A stretch of DNA of 64,000 nt from Synechococcus sp. CBW1004. Lineage in GTDB: Bacteria > Cyanobacteriota > Cyanobacteriia > PCC-6307 > Cyanobiaceae. The stretch's first letter is position 1. Each line of letters starts with the position of its first letter. The notes beneath the pieces are model-generated. The model had not been told where the DNA came from, ran no database searches, and saw only the letters and a program-made list of their open reading frames with translations. Of the stretch, positions 23,793-36,535 are shown one piece after another. The position numbers and the translations under genes were made by a program. The stretch covers positions 930,001 to 994,000 of the forward strand of contig NZ_CP060397.1 of assembly GCF_015840715.1 (NCBI RefSeq), written 5' to 3'.

Positions 23793-24056
23793 ATGACCGC
23801 TGGCGAGCTGTTCCTCGAGAGCCTCAGCTCCGGGGTGATCACCCAGGCCGAGATCGATTGGCTGCTGAGCCAGCAGGAGCGCTTCTCCAGAGCGGAGCAG
23901 GCGGCAATGCAGCGGCTGGGGCGACTGCTTGACGAGGGGCAGATCCAACTGGGGTGCCGGGTCGCGCCGCACTGGCTCCGTCACCGTCAGATGCTGAACG
24001 ACTGGATCGAGCCGCTGGGACGGCGTCGGGGTTCCTCTTCGCCCCATGACACCTGA
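23793..24056 (+). CDS. Small hypothetical protein
   Basis: 87 residues from ATG 23793, helical and acidic at the N-terminus (MTAGELFLESLSSGVITQAE), then basic. It is probably soluble. The pattern of an SHOCT-like or helical adaptor protein is possible but not certain. Its neighbour downstream is the relic of an AraC-like gene on the other strand. Confidence 0.55.
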   Translation: MTAGELFLESLSSGVITQAEIDWLLSQQERFSRAEQAAMQRLGRLLDEGQIQLGCRVAPHWLRHRQMLNDWIEPLGRRRGSSSPHDT

Positions 24057-24174
24057 GGCAGAGGTGGGCCCGTTCAAGCCAGGCGTGTGGATCCGGCAGC
24101 TCCTGCACCGGAGGCACGCGATCACGATTCAGAGGGGCAACACCACTGCTTCCGCCTCCGGGTGCTCCAGGCGG

Positions 24175-25887
24175 GTACCCATTCAGGGGGGCGGGACAGC
24201 TCATCGCGAACATCGATACGACTGAACCCTTGACGTCGGCTTGAATCCCGGTTGCATCTCAGGCAGAGACTTCCTGCGATGACCACCCCTCCGGCCGGGA
24301 TTTCAGAAGCGGACTGGGCTTCCACTCCGGTGGGCGTGAGGGCTGGCTTCCTTGAGGTTCTTGCACAGCTCCAGAGACAACAGCAGGAGAACGACCAGCT
24401 CCGAGCGCAGCTCACCGACCTGGCGACGGAACTGGCCAGCCTGCGCGAGCGGATCGGCCGCAACTCCCGCAACTCCTCCAAGCCGCCCTCCAGTGACGGC
24501 ACGGGTTTTAAGCCGCCCACCCGCTGCAAAGGCACTGGTCGCAAGCGGGGTGGTCAGCAGGGGCACCCGGGAGCAGGGCCGGAGCTGCTGCCGATCGCGC
24601 GTGTGGATGAGGTGCTCGAGCACCACCCGGACGCCTGCCGCCGCTGCGGCACCCTGCTACAGGGGGAGGATGCGGAGCCGCTGCGCCATCAGGTGATCGA
24701 GATTCCACCGATCAGCCCGGTGGTGATCGAACACCGTCTGCACCGTCTGGTCTGCCCCTGCTGCTCCACCAGCACCTGCGCCGAGCTGCCGGCGGATGTG
24801 GAGCCCAGCCGCTACGGCCCACGCCTGAGCGGCCTGGTGGGACTGCTGGGCAGCGCCTTTCCCCTGAGTTTCGGCCGAACCCAGGCGCTGCTGGATCAGC
24901 TGCTGGGTGTGGAAATCAGCCGCGGCGCTATCGCCACCATCCGGGCACGTCTGAGCGCAGCCCTGCAGCAGGCGGTGGAGGAAGCCCTGGAGGTGGCCCG
25001 GCAGCAGCCGGTGGCCTACGTGGATGAAACCGGCGCCCCCACCGGCAACGCCGACGGTTGTAATCCTGCTGGCAGGCGCGGCTGGCAGTGGGTCATGGTC
25101 ACACCACTGGTTACGGTGTTCCTGCAGGGCCTGAGCCGCTCAAGTGCAGCGGCAATGGAGCTTCTGGGCCATACCTTTGCAGGGATCGTGGTGAGTGATC
25201 GCTTCTCGGCCTACAACCACCTGCCCGTGGAGCAGCGGCAGCTGTGCTGGGCCCACCTGATCCGGGATCTGGCGGCCATCGCTGAACGCCAGGGCGCCAG
25301 CAGGGAGATCGGAGCCCAGATGCTGGCTCTGCAGCAGCATCTGTTCGCTCACTGGCACCAGTGGAAGAGCGGAGCGATCGACCGGCCCCAGCTCCTGCAT
25401 CGATGCCACCCCCTCCGCTTGGCGTTCGAGGCCACGCTGCAGCGGGTGGTGGATCTGGGCTGTGAGCGGGGCGAGCAAACGCCCTGGGCCCAGACGGTGC
25501 GAACCTGTCGCCAGTTGCTGCAGCGCAAGCAGGCGCTCTGGACTTTTCTGCAAACGCCAGGGATCGAGCCCACCAACAACGCTGCCGAGCGGGCACTGCG
25601 GCAATCGGTGATTCACCGCAAGATCAGCCATGGCGTCCAGTCCTCCGGCGGCGCCATCTGCCGCAGCCGGTTGCTCACCGTCACCGCCACCCTGCGGCAG
25701 CAGGGCCGCGATGTCTGGCAATTCCTGGAGCAGGCCTGGATTGCCCATCGCCTCGGCGGCGTGATGCCATCGCTGGTGCCGGATCGCTGAGGCAGCGATC
25801 ACACGTGGAAGGAACAGATGGCCCCTCTCAGAGGAGAGATCGGAGATTGACTGACGCACTGGGGTGTCCCGACCCCTGAACGCTTAC
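24175..25887 (+). mobile_element. IS66-family (single-ORF) element, copy 1, 1713 bp
   Basis: The ends read inward as GTA-N4-TTCAGGGG. The exact 8-bp duplication CCAGGCGG flanks it (24167-24174, 25888-25895); IS66 elements make 8-bp duplications. Only a TnpC-like transposase is present, without tnpA or tnpB, as in the ISBst12 subgroup. A second copy, broken by another IS, is at 60105-63590. Confidence 0.9.
24279..25790 (+). CDS. tnpC: IS66-family transposase TnpC-like
   Basis: 503 residues from ATG 24279. A coiled-coil leader (LQRQQQENDQLRAQL) and the typical RIGRNSRNSSKPPSSDG segment come first. A zinc-finger-like region follows (CRRCGTLL, then CPCCSTSTC). The DDE core has AYVDETGAPTG, IVVSDRFSAYNHL and the late TNNAAERALRQ. 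The protein is complete, unlike the second copy. Confidence 0.92.
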   Translation: MTTPPAGISEADWASTPVGVRAGFLEVLAQLQRQQQENDQLRAQLTDLATELASLRERIGRNSRNSSKPPSSDGTGFKPPTRCKGTGRKRGGQQGHPGAGPELLPIARVDEVLEHHPDACRRCGTLLQGEDAEPLRHQVIEIPPISPVVIEHRLHRLVCPCCSTSTCAELPADVEPSRYGPRLSGLVGLLGSAFPLSFGRTQALLDQLLGVEISRGAIATIRARLSAALQQAVEEALEVARQQPVAYVDETGAPTGNADGCNPAGRRGWQWVMVTPLVTVFLQGLSRSSAAAMELLGHTFAGIVVSDRFSAYNHLPVEQRQLCWAHLIRDLAAIAERQGASREIGAQMLALQQHLFAHWHQWKSGAIDRPQLLHRCHPLRLAFEATLQRVVDLGCERGEQTPWAQTVRTCRQLLQRKQALWTFLQTPGIEPTNNAAERALRQSVIHRKISHGVQSSGGAICRSRLLTVTATLRQQGRDVWQFLEQAWIAHRLGGVMPSLVPDR

Positions 25888-26462
25888 CCAGGCGGAACAG
25901 TCGGTCATCGGCGGCACGGCGGCTGATGTGCAGAAACAAGGGGATGTCAATGCCGAACTCCTGCTCGAACAAATCCTTCACTCCAGGCGTCTCGCCCAGG
26001 CCACAGGCACGGATGGCACGGCCAAGCCCTTGGCGAGGGTAATCCGTGAGCACCGTGAACAACTGGTTCAGGCGATGTTCCTGCAGGGCCTGAACGGGTG
26101 TGACGCCACGGATGTGATTGAAGCTGAAATCCAGACAGTGCAGGCTGGTGCCGAGCGAGTTGGCGAGATCCGGCATCTGAATTGGATCAGGGAAATGGAG
26201 GCCGAAATAGCGCGAAGCATCGCTCACGACTTGCCGTGGGTTGCTGCAGTCGCGCGGGGTATCGCGATCGGCCCGGTTCTCACCATCCACCACCGACAGA
26301 GATGGGTGACACCCAACAGTCACGCGTGCTGAAACACGTGACACCAAGCACGTGCATTCTCCTGGATTCAATCTGCACGGTCGGAGCGCTTGAAGCCACG
26401 GGTCGGCAGGTAAGTGGCACACATCGCAATCAGCAGTATTGCAATGTCATCAGGCGACTTAA

Positions 26463-27692
26463 GGAACCCCTGAAAAACCCGATAGAATCAGTACAGTTCC
26501 AATAATGAGACTGGCAGCGGATGGCGGCCCCCTCCAGTTGGGTTTCACGGACTACGAGCAGACCTACGCCAAGAAGAAAACGCGCCGGCAGCGCTTCCTC
26601 GATGAGATGGAAGCCACAGTGCCCTGGGATCCTTTCCTGGCCTTGATTTCGCCTGTGTACCACAGGCCTTCTGCCAAGGGCGGGCGCCCACCGTTTCCGC
26701 TGGAGGTGATGCTGCGCATCCACCTGCTGCAGCAGTGGTTCACGCTTTCCGATCCCTTGATGGAGGAGATGCTGATCGAGACCCCCTGCTTCCGCCGCTT
26801 TGCTGGGATCGACATGGTTGAGGACCGGATCCCTGACGAGACGACGATCCTGAACTTCCGCCACCTCCTGGAAGAGAATCGGATAGCAGAGCAGATCCTG
26901 GAGACGGTGAACCAGAGCCTGCGGGAGAAGGGCGTGATGCTTAAGGAGGGTACGATCCTCGATGCCACAATCATCAACGCTCCCAGTTCAACCAAGAACA
27001 AGACGGGCGAGCGGGATCCTGAAATGCACTCGGTGGCCAAAGGCAACCAGTGGTTCTTTGGGATGCGGTGCCACATCGGTGTGGATGCAGCCTCGGGTCT
27101 GGTCCATTCCGTGGTGAGCACGGCTGCCAACGTCCATGAGCTGAACACGGCACCCGATCGCGTCCATGGCGAGGAACGCGTGATCTACGGCGACTCTGGC
27201 CACATCGGCATCGAAAAGCGTGAGGCGTTCAAGGACTGCGAAGCAGAGATGCGCATCGCCATGAAGCCCGGACAGCGCCGAGTTCTACCGGACACCCCAG
27301 AGGGAAGACTGCTGGATCTGATGGAGGCGGCGAAAGCACATGTCAGGGCAAAGGTGGAGCATCCATTTCGGATCATCAAGTGCCAGTTTGGATTTCGGAA
27401 GGTCTTCTACCGAGGCATCCGCAAGAACAACCTCAAGCTGACGATGCTGTTTGCCCTCGCCAATCTCTGGATGGTGCGCGAACGTTGTCCTTCTACAGCG
27501 TAAATGACAGAATAAGTGTGCCATCTTGAGGGTGAGCAGCCAAAAATGATCGGGGAACTCACGAGAAATAAGCCAGTCAGGCCCTGGATTGGAGCACCTG
27601 GCGAGTAGCCAAGGACAAAATACCCCACTTGTGTCTCATTGACGAGAATGAGACACGCTTGCGCTCAATTCCCGGTCTTGATCAGAGCTTCC
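26463..27692 (+). mobile_element. IS5-family element, copy 1, 1230 bp
   Basis: The ends begin GGAACCCCTGAAAAACC and GGAAGCTCTGATCAAG, reading inward, and are flanked by a TTAA duplication (26459-26462, 27693-27696), fitting the YTAR target of IS5. The second copy is inverted at 50868-52098. About 190 bp of non-coding DNA follow the transposase stop. Confidence 0.88.
26505..27503 (+). CDS. IS5-family transposase (copy 1)
   Basis: 332 residues from ATG 26505. Motifs are LMEEMLIETPCFRRFAGID, then LKEGTILDATIINAPSS (first Asp), VIYGDSGHIG (second Asp) and KVEHPFRIIKCQFGF (Glu region). A run of five C near 26525 puts the distal ATG in frame, whereas the second copy has six C and must start at an internal ATG. 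Otherwise the two proteins differ by few residues. Confidence 0.92.
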   Translation: MRLAADGGPLQLGFTDYEQTYAKKKTRRQRFLDEMEATVPWDPFLALISPVYHRPSAKGGRPPFPLEVMLRIHLLQQWFTLSDPLMEEMLIETPCFRRFAGIDMVEDRIPDETTILNFRHLLEENRIAEQILETVNQSLREKGVMLKEGTILDATIINAPSSTKNKTGERDPEMHSVAKGNQWFFGMRCHIGVDAASGLVHSVVSTAANVHELNTAPDRVHGEERVIYGDSGHIGIEKREAFKDCEAEMRIAMKPGQRRVLPDTPEGRLLDLMEAAKAHVRAKVEHPFRIIKCQFGFRKVFYRGIRKNNLKLTMLFALANLWMVRERCPSTA

Positions 27693-27862
27693 TTAAAAAG
27701 ACACCTTCTCTCGTCAAGCTTCATTCATTCAGAAGCGTCAATCACTTTGACCTGACCCCGCGGGCGATCAGTGCCGCCACCCGTTCGTTGCTGGGGGGAG
27801 TCGCCTGGGCCTGAAAGCCCCTGGGCTCACGAGCGATCCTTCCCTCGCTCGCTTGCCTCGTC

Positions 27863-28966
27863 TCACGCCAACAGCGCCACCTCGACACAGAGCCCCGGGC
27901 CGAAAGCCATCGCCAGGCACGGTGCTGCTGCGCCATTGCGTCGCAGGCGCTCAAGGATGAACAGCAGGGTCGGGGAGGACATGTTGCCGCACTCCCTCAG
28001 CACCGATCGGGAGGGCTCGATCAGGGCGGGATCGAGTCCAAGGGTGTCGGTGACCGCCGAGAGGATGCGGGGGCCACCGGGATGCACGGCCCAGCAGCCG
28101 ATGGCGTCAAGCGTCAGTTGTTGCTCCGCCAACCACGCCTCCAGCCAGGGCCTCAGATGCTGTGCGATCAGATCGGGGACCTGGGGGGACAGACCCATGA
28201 CGAAGCCGTGATCCTCAATCGCCCAGGACATGGCTTCGCTGCTGTCGGGCACCAGGAGGGAGCCGCTGGCGATCAGGCGACGCAGCCCCAGGGCGGATTC
28301 CATCCCAGCAGCTGCCCCTTCCCCGCAGGCCACCAGAGCGGCGGCGCCATCGGCAAACAGGGCATTGGCCACGATCCTGTCTGCCTCCCAGCCGTACTGC
28401 AGATGAAGGCTGCAGAGCTCGACGGCGCAGAGCAACACGCAGGCGTTGGGATCGGCGCCGGTGAAGGCGGCCGCCACCCGCAGCCCGTTGAGGGCGGCGT
28501 GACATCCCATGAACCCCACATGGGTGCGGGCCACGCTGGGGCGCAGCGGCACGGCGGCCATCAGGGCCAGATCAACTCCGGGCGCATGGAAGCCCGTGCA
28601 GGAGACCGTGACCAGGTGGGTGAGGCGTTCGGAGGGAACCTGCGCCTGCTCCAGGGCAGCCCGCACGGCCCGCAGGGCAAGAGGCGGTGCTTGCTGGCTG
28701 TAGCGACGCATCCGCTCTCCGGTGCCAGGGCTCGTGCTGCCGAAGAAGCTCTGATCAGGACCGTCGATTGTGCCCATCAGGTCTTCCAGCACGAGGTGGC
28801 GCGTAGCGACCCCAGAGCGTCGATGGAGGGTGTCAACAAGCCGGCGCTTGGACGGGGAAGCCTCCTGCTCCGGCAGGGCCACCCGGGCGGCGATCGTGGC
28901 GGCGTCGCCCTGGGCCAGGCGATGCGGGGGAAGGGCTGTACCCAGGCCGTGAATCGTCAGGGACAT
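27863..28966 (-). CDS. Type III polyketide synthase
   Basis: 367 residues from ATG 28966, normal for the chalcone-synthase/alkylresorcinol-synthase family. The catalytic triad is visible: Cys123 (VSCTGFHAPGVD), His295 (WAVHPGGPR) and Asn328 (ECGNMSSPT). These enzymes extend an acyl-CoA starter with malonyl-CoA and cyclise the product. It is the last gene of a three-gene operon, overlapping the flavoprotein gene by 10 bases. The starter (fatty acyl or other) cannot be read from the sequence. Confidence 0.9.
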   Translation of the reverse strand: MSLTIHGLGTALPPHRLAQGDAATIAARVALPEQEASPSKRRLVDTLHRRSGVATRHLVLEDLMGTIDGPDQSFFGSTSPGTGERMRRYSQQAPPLALRAVRAALEQAQVPSERLTHLVTVSCTGFHAPGVDLALMAAVPLRPSVARTHVGFMGCHAALNGLRVAAAFTGADPNACVLLCAVELCSLHLQYGWEADRIVANALFADGAAALVACGEGAAAGMESALGLRRLIASGSLLVPDSSEAMSWAIEDHGFVMGLSPQVPDLIAQHLRPWLEAWLAEQQLTLDAIGCWAVHPGGPRILSAVTDTLGLDPALIEPSRSVLRECGNMSSPTLLFILERLRRNGAAAPCLAMAFGPGLCVEVALLA

Positions 28967-30111
28967 GGCTCTGGGGTGATCCTTTGCAGGTTGGCACCAT
29001 CGAGATGCTGGAGCAGGGGCGCCGTCAGGGCAGGCCAGCGCTCTGCTGCAGACAACATGGCTCGGCTCAGGCCTGGGCGCCGCAGAGCAAAAGCCAGGCC
29101 ATGGCAGAAGCGCTGACGCGAGCCGATCAGGCGGGCATGGCGCCGGGCCCATTCCCGCTCGATGCCGTGATCCCATTCCCTTTGTGCCTGCAACACCAGC
29201 GGGACGACCGCCAGTGCCCCCACCAGGGCCCAGCCCATGCCCTCCCCCGTGAACGGCTCGACGTAGCCGGCCGCATCCCCCAGCAACAGCAGCCGTTTGG
29301 CCGCCGGGGGGATGGAGCGTCGGGTGAGAGCCGGCGTGGCTCGCCAGGGGGAAGTGGTGGCTTCCGGCAGAGGATCAAAGCCTGCCTCGGCCAGCACTTC
29401 GGCGGCGGCGGCGGCCGGCCCACCGGCTGCCACCAGATGGGGGCGATCGAAGGCCGCCGCCAGGTTGAGGGCATCTGCTTCGTTGCGCACCAGGCCCACG
29501 TAGCCATGCCGGCCGATGGCCATGTGGATCGTGCCGTTGCCGTAGCCCCTCACATCGGCCTTCAGCTCGCAGCCGGCGCCGATCCGGGCCCGGGGGCTGA
29601 TCCGCGTTTCGATCGGCAGCTCCGGACCCAGAGCGGAGCTCCCCAGGCCCGAGGCCGCAAGCACGACCCGGGCGCTGGTGGTCTGCACATCATCACCGGA
29701 ACGCAGCCGCACCTCCCGGCCGGCGGGGGAGCAGCCAGCCACGGTGGCCTCGCACGGCGAACGCAACACGGCGCCAGCAGCAACGGCGGCTTCGCACAGG
29801 GCCAGGTCAAGGCGCCCCCGGGAGAGTGAGCGGCCCGCCGGCAGGGCGAGTTCCAGCTGATGTCCTTGCAGACCGAGCCGGATGCGTCCGAGTGGAACAG
29901 CGCCCAGTTCATTGAGCAGATGGCCCAGTCCCGCCGCCTCCAGCGCCTTGAGGGCCACGCCATTGAGGCAGCTGCCGCAGATCTTCCAGCGGGGGAACGC
30001 TCGCTTTTCCACCAGGAGCACCCGCAGCTGCTGACGCACCAACTGGTGGGCGGCCAGCGCACCAGCGGGTCCGGCCCCGATCACGATCACGTCCCACTCG
30101 GGAGCGCTCAT
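28957..30111 (-). CDS. FAD-dependent oxidoreductase / hydroxylase (GGR-PHBH type)
   Basis: 384 residues from ATG 30111. The Rossmann GxGxxG at 12-17 (IVIGAGPAGALAA) and the late FAD motif LLLLGDAAGYVEPFTGEGM are clear. The family includes geranylgeranyl reductases and aromatic hydroxylases. In the operon it lies between a methyltransferase and the type III PKS. This matches the order of tasks in alkylresorcinol-to-quinone pathways, where a flavoprotein hydroxylates the ring. It overlaps the methyltransferase gene by four bases. Confidence 0.88.
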   Translation of the reverse strand: MSAPEWDVIVIGAGPAGALAAHQLVRQQLRVLLVEKRAFPRWKICGSCLNGVALKALEAAGLGHLLNELGAVPLGRIRLGLQGHQLELALPAGRSLSRGRLDLALCEAAVAAGAVLRSPCEATVAGCSPAGREVRLRSGDDVQTTSARVVLAASGLGSSALGPELPIETRISPRARIGAGCELKADVRGYGNGTIHMAIGRHGYVGLVRNEADALNLAAAFDRPHLVAAGGPAAAAAEVLAEAGFDPLPEATTSPWRATPALTRRSIPPAAKRLLLLGDAAGYVEPFTGEGMGWALVGALAVVPLVLQAQREWDHGIEREWARRHARLIGSRQRFCHGLAFALRRPGLSRAMLSAAERWPALTAPLLQHLDGANLQRITPEPCP

Positions 30112-30842
30112 CGCTCCTGGGGCGAACAGCCCGGTCGTCGCCAACTCAGCAGATATCGCTCCGGCCAGCTGCGCCGCAGCCCAGCCCCTGCCAGACCGGC
30201 CCGGGTCGCCAGAGCCCGCACTTCCGACAACTGAAAGGCACCCTGCACCGAGACCGGACCATCGAAATGAACAATCGGGGAGCGACTCAGCAGTCGGCAG
30301 CCCGCCCAGGCCAAGCCGTAGCCCAGGGGGCTGCGGATCAGGTCATTGACCAAGACCAGGCAGCGGCTGGCGCCAGCCATTCGCCGCAGCAATTCCAGCG
30401 CCTGGTCTTCATCGAGATGGTGCAGAAACAGGCTGCAGAGGATCACGTCATAGTCCTCGGGGATGCGACCGTGGAGGGCGTCGGCCTGGAAGAACCGGGT
30501 ACCCAAGGCCCGCTCTTCAGCGTTCCGGGTCGCGATAGCCACCGCCTGTGGGCTGATGTCGCAGCCATCGACCTGGATGGCGAGCCCTTCTCGGCGGGCC
30601 CGTTCCGCCAGGGCGGTGGTGTTGTCCCCACCGCCGCAGGCCAGATCCAGAACCCGCAGCGGCTTGTCATTCTGTTCCAGGGCCAGGGACCGGATCGGCG
30701 CGAACAGGGATCCAACAGCTCCGCTGAAGGCATTGATCCGGCGCAGACCCTGCAGGGCCTGGCTGTGGGCGAGCGGATCGATGCCGGGCTGGTCCATCCA
30801 CTCGGGTTGCCGGTGCCGCTGGGCCAGGGACGGGAGAAGCAT
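30108..30842 (-). CDS. SAM-dependent methyltransferase
   Basis: 244 residues. Class I methyltransferase motif I is VLDLACGGGDNT (64-75), followed by VDGCDISPQAVAIA and the ILCSLFLHHLDEDQA segment. It is the first gene of the operon (methyltransferase, flavoprotein, type III PKS; all minus strand, overlapping ends). A role in O- or C-methylating the polyketide product is inferred from context. Confidence 0.88.
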   Translation of the reverse strand: MLLPSLAQRHRQPEWMDQPGIDPLAHSQALQGLRRINAFSGAVGSLFAPIRSLALEQNDKPLRVLDLACGGGDNTTALAERARREGLAIQVDGCDISPQAVAIATRNAEERALGTRFFQADALHGRIPEDYDVILCSLFLHHLDEDQALELLRRMAGASRCLVLVNDLIRSPLGYGLAWAGCRLLSRSPIVHFDGPVSVQGAFQLSEVRALATRAGLAGAGLRRSWPERYLLSWRRPGCSPQER

Positions 30843-32116: not shown

Positions 32117-32584
32117 AGCCCCTTCATGAAGCCCCATTGCCTCCCGTGAAGAGCGGTATCGAAGCTGCTGCAGCCGTTGCCGGCTCTGGCCGGCGGGCCC
32201 ATTGTGGCTGCAACGGGATTCGGAGGCTCCATTGATGGAAGACACCCCCCCTGAGCACCAGCAAGGAGCGCGCTGACGATCCGGCCCCTGCTCCAACATT
32301 CCTGACGGATCACTGATGTTCCTGGCGTGTCATTTCCTGGAGGGGACACACGCCGTCCACTGCACCGCCTGAGGTGCCCCGGACCCAACGGAACGTCCCA
32401 CTCGACACCTGGCCCCAGGTGCCAGCGCCGGCAGCTCCGCCCACAACTGAAAACCACCGATCTGAAAACGATCAGGCTGTTTCAACGCAAACCATCGCAC
32501 GGCTGCGCCCGACCCCCTTGGGACGGCACCACGGCTGAGCAGGCAAACGCCCGGGGCCAACGCTCCGGGCTTTGTTGTGTCAGC
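32117..32584. other. Intergenic stretch with one hairpin
   Basis: No convincing gene. The only structured part is a stem of GCCCGG/CCGGGC at 32549-32570 followed on the plus strand by a T-rich run. It lies between the convergent VOC gene and the decayed acetolactate decarboxylase. Confidence 0.4.
32549..32570 (+). terminator. Terminator-like hairpin
   Basis: A six-base-pair GC stem (GCCCGG and CCGGGC) with a ten-base loop is followed on the plus strand by TTTGTTGTG. It could end transcripts from the left or serve the minus-strand relic. Confidence 0.4.
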
Positions 32585-33044
32585 TCAAGCCTTGTGATCC
32601 CCCTCGGCTTTGGCCAGGGCCGCCGCCGGATCGCCGCTGAGATCCGCCTTGAGGAACGCGGGCGATTCCGGTAACACCAGCTGCAGGTGACTCTCGCGGT
32701 GCAGCTCAAGCTCCAGCTCCCGGCTCTGCAGCTCCAGCACATGACCGGCATGGCGGTGGTCGTCGCTGAGCAGGTGCAGGTGGTAGCCCGGCACGTTGAT
32801 CGTGCGGGCATAGCTGGGGGTCCAGAAACCCACCAGGGTGCCGGCCACCTGCTCCAGATCGAACGTCTCGAACACCCCACGGATGCGGATCGCCACGAAC
32901 AGGTGGCGTTGTCGCGCAGGCCATCGAGCCGGGCAGTGAGATCGGCCCAGCTGGCCACATCGCGCAGGGTGGCCTGGTGGTCAGCCGCAAAACAGGGTCG
33001 GACAAAGGCAGTTGCCGCAACAGCTCTCGCCTGTCTCGATCCAG
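32585..33044 (-). pseudogene. Alpha-acetolactate decarboxylase relic
   Basis: The minus strand encodes AGTLVGFWTPSYARTINVPG, then HLHLLSDDHRHAGHVLEL, the metal-binding histidine region of acetolactate decarboxylase (BudA/AlsD), which makes acetoin. Upstream, DHQATLRDVASWADLTARLD is in another frame, a one-base deletion away near 32905. The loop normally found between the GVF and GTLVGFW segments is missing (about 30 residues), and the N-terminus is cut by the IS at 33051. The gene is dead. Confidence 0.75.
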
Positions 33045-33050
33045 TAATTA

Positions 33051-34811
33051 GGGCCTGCTGAGAATCCCAGACCCACTGCCCCGCAGTTGATTCCAACAGG
33101 AATCTCATGATAGGATGGCCTGTAATCAGCCATTCCTGGCTTAGAAGAACCTGCTGACACGCAAATGTACGTTTTTCAGCACACCGGTCAGCTGTCGATT
33201 GAGGAGTTTCACTCGCCCTTTGGCGGGAAGCTCGATCCCAACAACCGCTGGGTTCTGCTCCACAAGTTGATTCTGTGGATTCAACTGGAAAGCCACTACG
33301 CGCCCCAGTTCAGCGCCAAGACAGGAGCCCCAGCCAAGCCCTTCCAGATGGCGTTCGGTGCGCTCTACATCCAACGACGATTGGGAGTGACGGATCGAGA
33401 GACGGTGGAGCTGATCACGGAATCACCCTATCTGCAATTTTTCATTGGCTTGAGCGGTTACCAGCCCCTGCCGCCGTTTGACGCCTCCATGATGGTGCAC
33501 TTTCGCAAGCGAATTGGCCCTGAGCTGATCAAGGTCTGCAATGCTATGACCAAGGCCAACGGGATCGCAATGATTCAGGAGATGCTCGCTACTTGCGAGC
33601 AGGAAGACGGCATGACTGCAGAGGATCACAAGCAGCTTGCGGCCATTGAGGAAGAGCTGGGGGTGAAGCCAGCATCGCTCGATCCTGGCAGCAACTGGGG
33701 AACTCTGATCCTTGATGCAACCTGCGTGCCTGATGACATCCCCTACCCAGTGGACTTGAGGCTGCTTGCTGAGTCCCGGGACACAACGGAGAAGGTCATT
33801 GACGAGTTGTTCAAGCAGTTACAGGGCAAGATTCCCCGCAAGCCGCGCTGCAATAGCGTAAAAGCTCATAACCTATTCCTGGTTATCATCAAAAAGAAAA
33901 AGCCAAGCCGTGAGGAGATCCGGGAGGCGAAACGCTTCCAGCTCAACGAGATCAGCCGTAATCTCAGAGCAATTGACGGCATGATCTATTGCGGTGCAGA
34001 GCTTTCGGGGCTTGGTTCACAGCTGTACCGCAAGCTGCTGATCGCCAGTGAAGTCGCCCGGCAGCAACAGGAGATGTATAACGCTGACAGCCGGCGCATC
34101 GATGACAGGATCGTGAATCTGATGAAGCCACATGTAAGACCGATCGTGCGAGGCAAGGCGGGCAAGAAAACCGAGTTCGGGGCCAAGATTTCAATTTCTG
34201 ATGACAATGGCTTTGTCGATGTGGATCGGATCAGCTGGGACAACTACAATGAAGCCAACGATCTGATCACACGTGCCGAGCAATACAAGGAAGAGCGAGG
34301 ATACTACCCGGCCCGGATCTGTGCCGATTCAATCTATATGACATCTGGAAGCAAGAAGTTCTGTGAGGCTAATAAAATCAGAGTCAGCGGCCGCCCACGC
34401 AAGAAGCAGGTCGAAGCCGAGGTGCAGACAGCAGAGCAGCAAGAGCTGTTCAAATCAGACATGAGAAAGCGTTCCGTGATCGAGGGAAGAATCGGGACGG
34501 GCAAGCGGAAATACGGACTGGATCGAATCCTAACCAAGTTGGTTGAAACATCAAGAACAGTGATCACGATGGCGTTCTTTGTCATGAATGTCGAGAAGAT
34601 CATGAGGCTACTGCGCCTCTTGTTCGCTATTTTTGTCTCTGTGTACATCCTGATGCTTGGTTTGTGCACTGTCCGGTGCCGTCCAGCGCTTCTGTGGGCT
34701 GCTTAGTCAGCTTCCAGGAGTAAAACTGCGGTCACCACTGCTCGGGCGTGCGGGCCAAGAGATCCGCCTTTGACGCGCCGGAAAAGCCCACAATCGAAAT
34801 TCAGCAAGCTC
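33051..34811 (+). mobile_element. IS of the DUF772/DDE type, relative A, 1761 bp
   Basis: Imperfect ends (GGGCCTGCTGAGAATCC and GAGCTTGCTGAATTTC reading inward) are flanked by TAATTA at 33045-33050 and 34812-34817. It abuts a second IS that uses the same TAATTA. It carries one transposase gene and is related to, but clearly diverged from, the copy at 17938. Confidence 0.88.
33165..34706 (+). CDS. Transposase, DUF772 plus DDE type (relative A)
   Basis: 513 residues from ATG 33165. The same architecture as the 18053 transposase: FHSPFGGKLDPNNRW, GAPAKPFQMAFGALYIQRRL, FDASMMVHFRKR, then LILDATCVPDDIPYP (first Asp), GAKISISDDNGFVDVDRIS, RICADSIYMT and RSVIEGRIGTGKRKY. Intact, with a hydrophobic tail. 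It differs at most positions outside the motifs, so it is a distinct IS species. Confidence 0.9.
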   Translation: MYVFQHTGQLSIEEFHSPFGGKLDPNNRWVLLHKLILWIQLESHYAPQFSAKTGAPAKPFQMAFGALYIQRRLGVTDRETVELITESPYLQFFIGLSGYQPLPPFDASMMVHFRKRIGPELIKVCNAMTKANGIAMIQEMLATCEQEDGMTAEDHKQLAAIEEELGVKPASLDPGSNWGTLILDATCVPDDIPYPVDLRLLAESRDTTEKVIDELFKQLQGKIPRKPRCNSVKAHNLFLVIIKKKKPSREEIREAKRFQLNEISRNLRAIDGMIYCGAELSGLGSQLYRKLLIASEVARQQQEMYNADSRRIDDRIVNLMKPHVRPIVRGKAGKKTEFGAKISISDDNGFVDVDRISWDNYNEANDLITRAEQYKEERGYYPARICADSIYMTSGSKKFCEANKIRVSGRPRKKQVEAEVQTAEQQELFKSDMRKRSVIEGRIGTGKRKYGLDRILTKLVETSRTVITMAFFVMNVEKIMRLLRLLFAIFVSVYILMLGLCTVRCRPALLWAA

Positions 34812-34817
34812 TAATTA

Positions 34818-36535
34818 GGGCTTCCTGAATAAGGGCAGATCCACTGCAGTGCAATGGATCTCGGCAGTTTCTGACGGTAAAATGTGCGTGAAAGGGCTGA
34901 TCTGAGCCCAAAAGCGGTCCGGAGTTTTCCACATGTATCGGCGTGAGCATCGTTATCAGCTCTCGTTCGAAGACTTCTTCCTGCCGTTTGGCGGCAAACT
35001 CTCCGGTGATAATCGGTGGATCAAGCTGGCTGAGCTCATTCCGTGGGATGAACTGGAGGACGACTACGCAGCGCAATTCTGTAAGGGCTTTGGAGCACCG
35101 GCAAAACCCTTTCGCATGGCACTGGGTGCCTTGATCATCAAGACCCGTCTCGGGCTCACGGATGAAGAACTGGTGGAGCAGATCAAGGAAAACCCCTATC
35201 TCCAGTTTTTCATTGGCTTGGAAGCGTTCCAGTCTTCGGCGCCGTTTGATCCATCGATGATGGTGTATTTCCGCAAGCGCTTGCCAGAAGCGATTGTGAA
35301 TGAATGCAATGAAAGGATTGTGCGCCACGGCCTGAAAATGATTCGCTCATCAGATCCCCAGGGCACAGGGGATGACGACGGCAGTGGCGGATCGACCAGT
35401 CCTCCCGACCAACCAAAGCCATCCTTGCAGAAGCAGCCGAATCAGGGTTCACTCTTGATCGATGCCACCTGTGCGCCGGTGGATATCCGTCATCCCACCG
35501 ATCTATCCCTGCTCAATGAAGCCAGGGAGGTGACTGAGATCCTGATTGATGCGATGCATCCCCAGGTCAGGGAACGCTTCGGCTACAAGCCGCGTACACA
35601 CCGCAAAAAGGCGAGGCAGCAGTTTCTTGCAGTGGCCAAAAAGAAGAAGCCAAGGATCAGCAAGATCCGCAAAGCGATCAAGCAGCAGCTTGGTCACCTC
35701 AAGCGGAATCTGGCAAGCGTTGACGCCCTGATCGCCTGTGGTGGCAGCCTTCTGGCCGCCGGACGGCATATCTACCGGAAGTTGCTGGTGATCAGCGAGC
35801 TGGTCCGCCAGCAGACTATTCTCTATCACGCAGACAGCAGAAGCATCCCAGATCGCATCGTCAGCCTCTGCCAGGCACATATCAGGCCGATTGTCCGCGG
35901 GAAAGCTCGTTGCAATGTTGAGTTCGGAGCCAAGATCTCAATCTCTGTCACCGGCGAGGGATTCACCTTCCTCGATCGCCTGAGTTATGACCCCTACAAC
36001 GAAGGAGAAGACCTCAAGGGTCAAGCGATTTCCTATCGGCGTCGCCATGGTCACTATCCGATGGTGATTTGTGCTGACCAGATCTACCGCACAAGATCGA
36101 ACCGTGCCTTCTGCCAGCGCCATGGAATCCGTTTGAGTGGCCCGCGACTTGGACGGCCGAAGAACGATCCTGAATTGGTGGCTGCCGAGAAGCAGCAGTT
36201 CATCGATGACCAGCGCCAAAGGAATGCCGTTGAAGGCAAGATCGGCCAAGGCAAGAGGCGTTTTGGACTGGGCCTGATTCGTGAGAAGCTCGCTGTGACC
36301 CAGGGTTCAACCATTGCACTCAATATTCTGGTGATGAACCTCGAGAAGCTGCTGGAGCTTCTTTTTGTTCTTTTTGCGTCCTGGCTGCAACTTCTCCTGT
36401 GCAATCAACCAGGCAAGGGGTCCCCATTCGTGTGTGTGAGCACTCATCTCAGCCCCACATGAACGGCCAGTCTCCGCCTCACTCAGGCTCGGCTCTTTGA
36501 CAGCTTGACCTCCCTCTCACTTTCTCAGGAAGCCC
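34818..36535 (+). mobile_element. IS of the DUF772/DDE type, relative B, 1718 bp
   Basis: The ends begin GGGCTTCCTGA on both sides. TAATTA precedes it (34812-34817, shared with relative A) and follows it (36536-36541). Its right flank leads straight to the tRNA-Pro fragment at 36552. The element is complete with one transposase gene. Confidence 0.88.
34933..36462 (+). CDS. Transposase, DUF772 plus DDE type (relative B)
   Basis: 509 residues from ATG 34933. Motifs: FFLPFGGKLSGDNRW, GAPAKPFRMALGALIIKTRL, FDPSMMVYFRKRL, LLIDATCAPVDIRHP (first Asp), GAKISISVTGEGFTFLDRLS, VICADQIYRT and RNAVEGKIGQGKRRF. A Ser/Pro/Gln-rich linker precedes the catalytic part. No truncation seen. Confidence 0.9.
   Translation: MYRREHRYQLSFEDFFLPFGGKLSGDNRWIKLAELIPWDELEDDYAAQFCKGFGAPAKPFRMALGALIIKTRLGLTDEELVEQIKENPYLQFFIGLEAFQSSAPFDPSMMVYFRKRLPEAIVNECNERIVRHGLKMIRSSDPQGTGDDDGSGGSTSPPDQPKPSLQKQPNQGSLLIDATCAPVDIRHPTDLSLLNEAREVTEILIDAMHPQVRERFGYKPRTHRKKARQQFLAVAKKKKPRISKIRKAIKQQLGHLKRNLASVDALIACGGSLLAAGRHIYRKLLVISELVRQQTILYHADSRSIPDRIVSLCQAHIRPIVRGKARCNVEFGAKISISVTGEGFTFLDRLSYDPYNEGEDLKGQAISYRRRHGHYPMVICADQIYRTRSNRAFCQRHGIRLSGPRLGRPKNDPELVAAEKQQFIDDQRQRNAVEGKIGQGKRRFGLGLIREKLAVTQGSTIALNILVMNLEKLLELLFVLFASWLQLLLCNQPGKGSPFVCVSTHLSPT

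Follow-up and report, generated by a model that had tools for sequence, protein, structure and literature searches.

Structure and integrity of a three-gene operon in Synechococcus

A stretch of 64,000 nucleotides from Synechococcus sp. CBW1004 (contig NZ_CP060397.1, positions 930,001 to 994,000; hereafter the window, with its own numbering) was analyzed with respect to three minus-strand genes at 27863-30842. These encode a methyltransferase, a flavin adenine dinucleotide (FAD)-dependent oxidoreductase and a type III polyketide synthase (PKS). Such a set, hidABC, makes hierridin in Cyanobium LEGE 06113, and 47 hierridin-like cyanobacterial clusters have been reported (Costa et al. 2019; PMC8086630). 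A preliminary description of the window had termed the genes srs-like, after Streptomyces, and noted overlaps of 4 and 10 bases. These overlaps were confirmed by the open reading frames (ORFs) and by the starts in relatives. The methyltransferase and flavoprotein genes share the four bases ATGA, and the flavoprotein and PKS genes share ten. The longer starts given by the ORF tool (TTG at 30144, ATG at 29176) can be dispensed with. In close relatives, ATGs occur at the corresponding internal sites, with overlaps of -4 and -10 (starts in relatives were picked as the ATG or GTG nearest the expected position). Since these ATGs and overlaps match, the gene limits of the preliminary description were preferred over the longer mechanical ORFs (Table 1). 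Both overlaps are retained in nearly all close relatives.

Pfam assigned the PKS to Chal_sti_synt_N and Chal_sti_synt_C, the flavoprotein to FAD_binding_3, DAO and Lycopene_cycl, and the methyltransferase to Methyltransf_25. Compared with close relatives, each of the three genes has a ratio of nonsynonymous to synonymous substitution rates (dN/dS) of 0.18-0.30, which argues that the genes are intact, under purifying selection and no chance arrangement. In blastn comparisons, DNA similarity with close relatives was essentially confined to the three genes (30876-27854). As it ends at the edges of the gene set, the methyltransferase, flavoprotein and PKS genes were taken as the pathway unit. Scans for promoters and terminators revealed nothing above chance. 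When extra pathway genes were sought among conserved neighbors, only one relative, locus L004, shared a DoxX gene and one unknown gene downstream; therefore, no additional pathway gene is claimed.

Table 1. Position and basis of the features described in the window.
Feature	Position	Strand	Remarks and basis
Methyltransferase (hidA-like, class I S-adenosylmethionine (SAM)-dependent)	30108-30842	-	244 aa; ATG start; Methyltransf_25, NF004851, hid-type relatives
FAD-dependent oxidoreductase (hidB-like)	28957-30111	-	384 aa; ATG at 30111, stop 28957-28959; FAD_binding_3, fold matches
Type III polyketide synthase (hidC-like)	27863-28966	-	367 aa; ATG at 28966, stop 27863-27865; Chal_sti_synt_N/C, triad, tree
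Segment of ~4 kb between hidC and the DoxX gene	23811-27855		Not part of the pathway; absent in relative L004 (blastn)
IS66-family transposase	24252-25790	+	Pfam
IS5-type DDE transposase	26505-27503	+	Pfam

Distribution and inheritance of the operon

A scan of named genomes provided 80 PKS loci, which were picked by similarity to the window and from which no direction of transfer is claimed. In almost all loci with enough contig, the methyltransferase and flavoprotein genes lie directly upstream of the PKS gene in the same order. Loci with this gene triad were found in Synechococcus, Cyanobium, Vulcanococcus and Aphanothece as well as in Planctomycetota, Acidobacteriota and Gemmatimonadota. 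The best relatives are Synechococcus and Cyanobium genomes with 77-88% protein identity, which supports a cyanobacterial host. The PKS is ~57% identical to the WH 5701-type lineage, and proteins of the planctomycete loci are 32-60% identical to the three of the window. Within the host genus, a PKS match was present in 32 of 42 genomes. Identity was ≥58% in 28 of these; a few matches were weak, incomplete or of a different kind. Across the phylum, a strong match was obtained in 28 of the 386 genomes sampled, mostly in the family of the host. Across 59 operons, the pairwise distances of one protein correlate with those of the other two at 0.92-0.94, indicating that the genes are inherited largely as a unit. 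Thus, most of the host genus carries the pathway intact and inherits it as one unit.

In Cyanobium sp. N.Huapi 1H5, where L040 and L085 represent one contig stretch, the middle of the operon is deleted and methyltransferase residues 6-55 stand just before PKS residues 104-368 (L085, 2368-3216). The arrangement suggests that the strain has lost the pathway. A second type III PKS, distant in sequence (~31% identical; L082, 553-1800), occurs in a genome of the same genus that also has a hid-type PKS. A third kind in the genus (34% identical; L084, 1030-2142) directly follows a ketosynthase gene, an arrangement reminiscent of hybrid type I/III clusters.

Active site and phylogeny of the type III polyketide synthase

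Alignment of the PKS to alfalfa chalcone synthase (CHS) and PKS18 placed the catalytic triad at C155, H295 and N328, in agreement with the Cys/His/Asn triad described before. All three residues are invariant in the 76 PKS sequences aligned. Equally invariant (76/76) are M257, which aligns with F265 of CHS, and W248, which lies nine residues before M257 and aligns with G256. According to Larsen et al. (PMC8086630), Met at CHS position 265 is a signature of the HidC clade. In Azotobacter, Trp281 of ArsB versus Gly284 of ArsC decides between resorcinol and pyrone, and Met293 is involved (PMC6274091). When the PKS was aligned directly with ArsC (3vs8) and the G284W mutant of ArsC (3vs9), W248 and M257 proved to occupy exactly these positions. 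The tunnel residues A128 and C185 match A148 and C205 of PKS18, whereas plant CHS has Met and Thr there.

In the PKS tree, a single cyanobacterial hid-type clade (support 100/99) adjoins Isosphaeraceae of the Planctomycetota (96/91), and the long-chain enzymes PKS18 and PKS1 are nearer to the PKS than plant CHS. A concatenated FastTree of the operon proteins agrees with this tree. Clustering with aromatic-starter enzymes, named in the preliminary description as a refuting outcome and checked here in part, was not found, as the PKS groups with hid-type operons. The host genome (a single contig of 3.67 Mb) has one type III PKS gene.

The structure model of the PKS (predicted local distance difference test (pLDDT) 89.7) had its best PDB match in PKS11 (Z 49.1), with PKS1 of Ectocarpus and PKS18 also among the closest. 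Plant enzymes trail these top matches by only a few Z units and, therefore, the fold alone leaves the starter unsettled. Among solved structures, those of the pyrone synthases PKS18 and PKS11 are nearest, and PKS11 likewise has the Trp. These similarities would fit an enzyme making alkyl-alpha-pyrones, as PKS18, PKS11 and ArsC do, with partner enzymes that act on pyrones. We consider this highly improbable in view of the relatives with the same type of operon. In planctomycetes, an operon for a methyltransferase, an oxidoreductase and a type III PKS has been described, the PKSs of which on their own gave pentadecyl- (C15) and heptadecylresorcinols (C17) in C. glutamicum (PMC10896814), and hierridin from the hid-type operon is itself a resorcinol derivative (PMC8086630, PMC10896814).

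The putative tailoring enzymes

The methyltransferase is a class I Rossmann SAM enzyme. It matches Methyltransf_25 (E 1.1e-16) as well as Methyltransf_12 and Methyltransf_11, reaches 245 bits against NCBIfam NF004851 (cut-off 243) and matches the PRK06202 family. A close solved structure was not found for it. The protein is 42-88% identical to the counterpart in hid-type operons and is probably the O-methyltransferase of the alkylresorcinol ring.

The methyltransferase family also bears on the srs label. A true srsABC-type operon with homologues of SrsA, SrsB and SrsC would have the same three functional enzyme classes, and its product class would probably be similar. However, SrsB belongs to the isoprenylcysteine carboxyl methyltransferases (PMC6669644), in contrast to the class I SAM enzyme found here. 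Furthermore, the order is methyltransferase, flavoprotein, PKS in the window but PKS, methyltransferase, hydroxylase in srs, and SrsA and HidC fall into different type III PKS clades in the trees of Larsen et al. (PMC8086630). Homology to srs was rejected on the basis of methyltransferase family and gene order, and we regard membership in this operon type as extremely improbable. The label holds only as a functional analogy; a methylated, hydroxylated alkylresorcinol is plausible.

The flavoprotein belongs to the geranylgeranyl-reductase/aromatic hydroxylase superfamily. Its second FAD motif, GDAAGYVEPFTGEG, lies at residues 278-291, and FAD_binding_3 was matched with E 7.9e-12. The geranylgeranyl-reductase model TIGR02032 gave E 4.5e-27 and 95.5 bits, below its cut-off of 158.8. 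The structure model (pLDDT 89.9) matched flavin halogenases (Z 36-39) and monooxygenases of the p-hydroxybenzoate hydroxylase type (Z 33-35). In alignments with CmlS, Bmp2, ChlB4 and FasV, the GES motif of halogenases is missing after the first FAD motif and CGxCL is found instead. A role as halogenase, raised by the best structural matches, is not favored because this motif is missing. Hydroxylation of the ring, as hierridin needs, is probably the simplest reading of the enzyme. A search of the host genome for a second HidB-like protein turned up no more than a single weak match over part of the protein, at 27% identity.

Assignment to the hid family and proposed pathway

Based on these data, the three genes very probably constitute an intact hidABC-type operon that makes a hierridin-like 5-alkylresorcinol. 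The gene set, order and overlap, the conservation, the active-site residues and the phylogenetic placement were all observed in the present analysis, and in every feature testable here the operon matches the hid family. The acyl starter, the resorcinol product and the roles of both tailoring enzymes are predicted from the literature on relatives. In the proposed pathway, the PKS (HidC) would load a C16-C18 fatty acyl group from CoA or acyl carrier protein (ACP) onto Cys155 and add three malonyl units to give a tetraketide. C2-C7 aldol condensation and loss of CO2 would yield the 5-alkylresorcinol. The FAD enzyme (HidB) may then place a hydroxyl group on the ring, and the SAM enzyme (HidA) may O-methylate ring hydroxyls, which would result in a hierridin-like methylated hydroquinone lipid.

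Four points weigh against this assignment. The Trp is not decisive, since the pyrone synthase PKS11 has it at this position and the resorcinol synthase CylI does not. The best scores of the flavoprotein are to geranylgeranyl reductases, below the cut-off of that family, so that hydroxylation is an inference. Orthology to HidC of LEGE 06113 is supported by gene order, signature residues and the published trees rather than by an alignment of the two sequences. Finally, the planctomycete methyltransferase that has been tested, from Gimesia maris, seemed to act on carbon instead of oxygen (PMC10896814).

This last point is also consistent with a refinement of the hid assignment, in which the operon is of hid type and the decorated product differs from hierridin B in methyl count, C-methylation, quinone oxidation state or chlorine. 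The identity of only ~57% between this PKS and that of the WH 5701-type lineage would fit such a product, as would the closeness of the HidB-like fold to flavin halogenases, the source of chlorine in hierridin C being unexplained. The CGxCL sequence, found where the halogenases compared have GES, argues against it. We regard a different decoration as possible, with odds somewhat below even. A more specific proposal is that, in freshwater Cyanobium and Synechococcus, the product of the operon is a decorated alkylresorcinol or quinone lipid other than hierridin B. As a membrane or redox lipid it would then have a real physiological role, and this role would explain why most of the genus has kept the operon. 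We regard this proposal as rather unlikely.

With regard to the hid assignment, the operon is real, intact and functionally predictable, and it belongs to a described family that is common in this group; no departure from the known hid kind was apparent. A phenolic lipid of the alkylresorcinol type in a cyanobacterium, as suggested in the preliminary description, is well supported. The label is thereby corrected, with the native hierridin pathway of cyanobacteria in place of an operon of the Streptomyces type. The hierridins, a group of long-chain phenolic lipids, are bioactive (cytotoxic), and the conserved, intact operon in culturable picocyanobacteria makes the producer role testable by knock-out.

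Surrounding DNA

In L004, the stretches matching 30211-27856 and 23810-22279 are contiguous, and the PKS gene is directly followed by the DoxX gene and the unknown gene, both of which are found past the transposases in the window. Thus, ~4 kb were either inserted in the window or lost in L004. The IS5-type DDE element is present in ~25 near-identical full-length copies in the host genome. On the other side of the operon, an alpha-acetolactate decarboxylase gene (32482-33108, minus strand) matches its profile only in the C-terminal part (32585-32896, profile positions 141-218). This apparently broken gene beside a transposase is possibly a pseudogene. Two different DDE_Tnp_1_2 transposases follow in tandem at 33165-36462, with similar inverted repeats near 33044, 34812 and 36520.

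Comparison with known systems

The closest known system is hidABC, a cyanobacterial operon overlooked in the preliminary description, and the label srs should become hid. The operon of LEGE 06113 shares with the window the three genes, their order, the host group and Met at CHS position 265. It differs in strain and sequence lineage, and the product of the window is predicted only. The planctomycete operon also shares the gene order, but it belongs to another phylum and the methyltransferase of G. maris is seemingly a C-methyltransferase. ArsB of Azotobacter vinelandii has the resorcinol-favoring Trp/Met pair that aligns with W248 and M257. The ars operon includes dedicated fatty acid synthases, ArsA and ArsD, and, unlike the window, lacks the tailoring pair of methyltransferase and oxidoreductase. 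In srsABC of Streptomyces griseus, a type III PKS, a methyltransferase and a flavin hydroxylase are likewise combined, and methylated alkylresorcinols are formed, whereas the methyltransferase family is unrelated and gene order and PKS clade are different.
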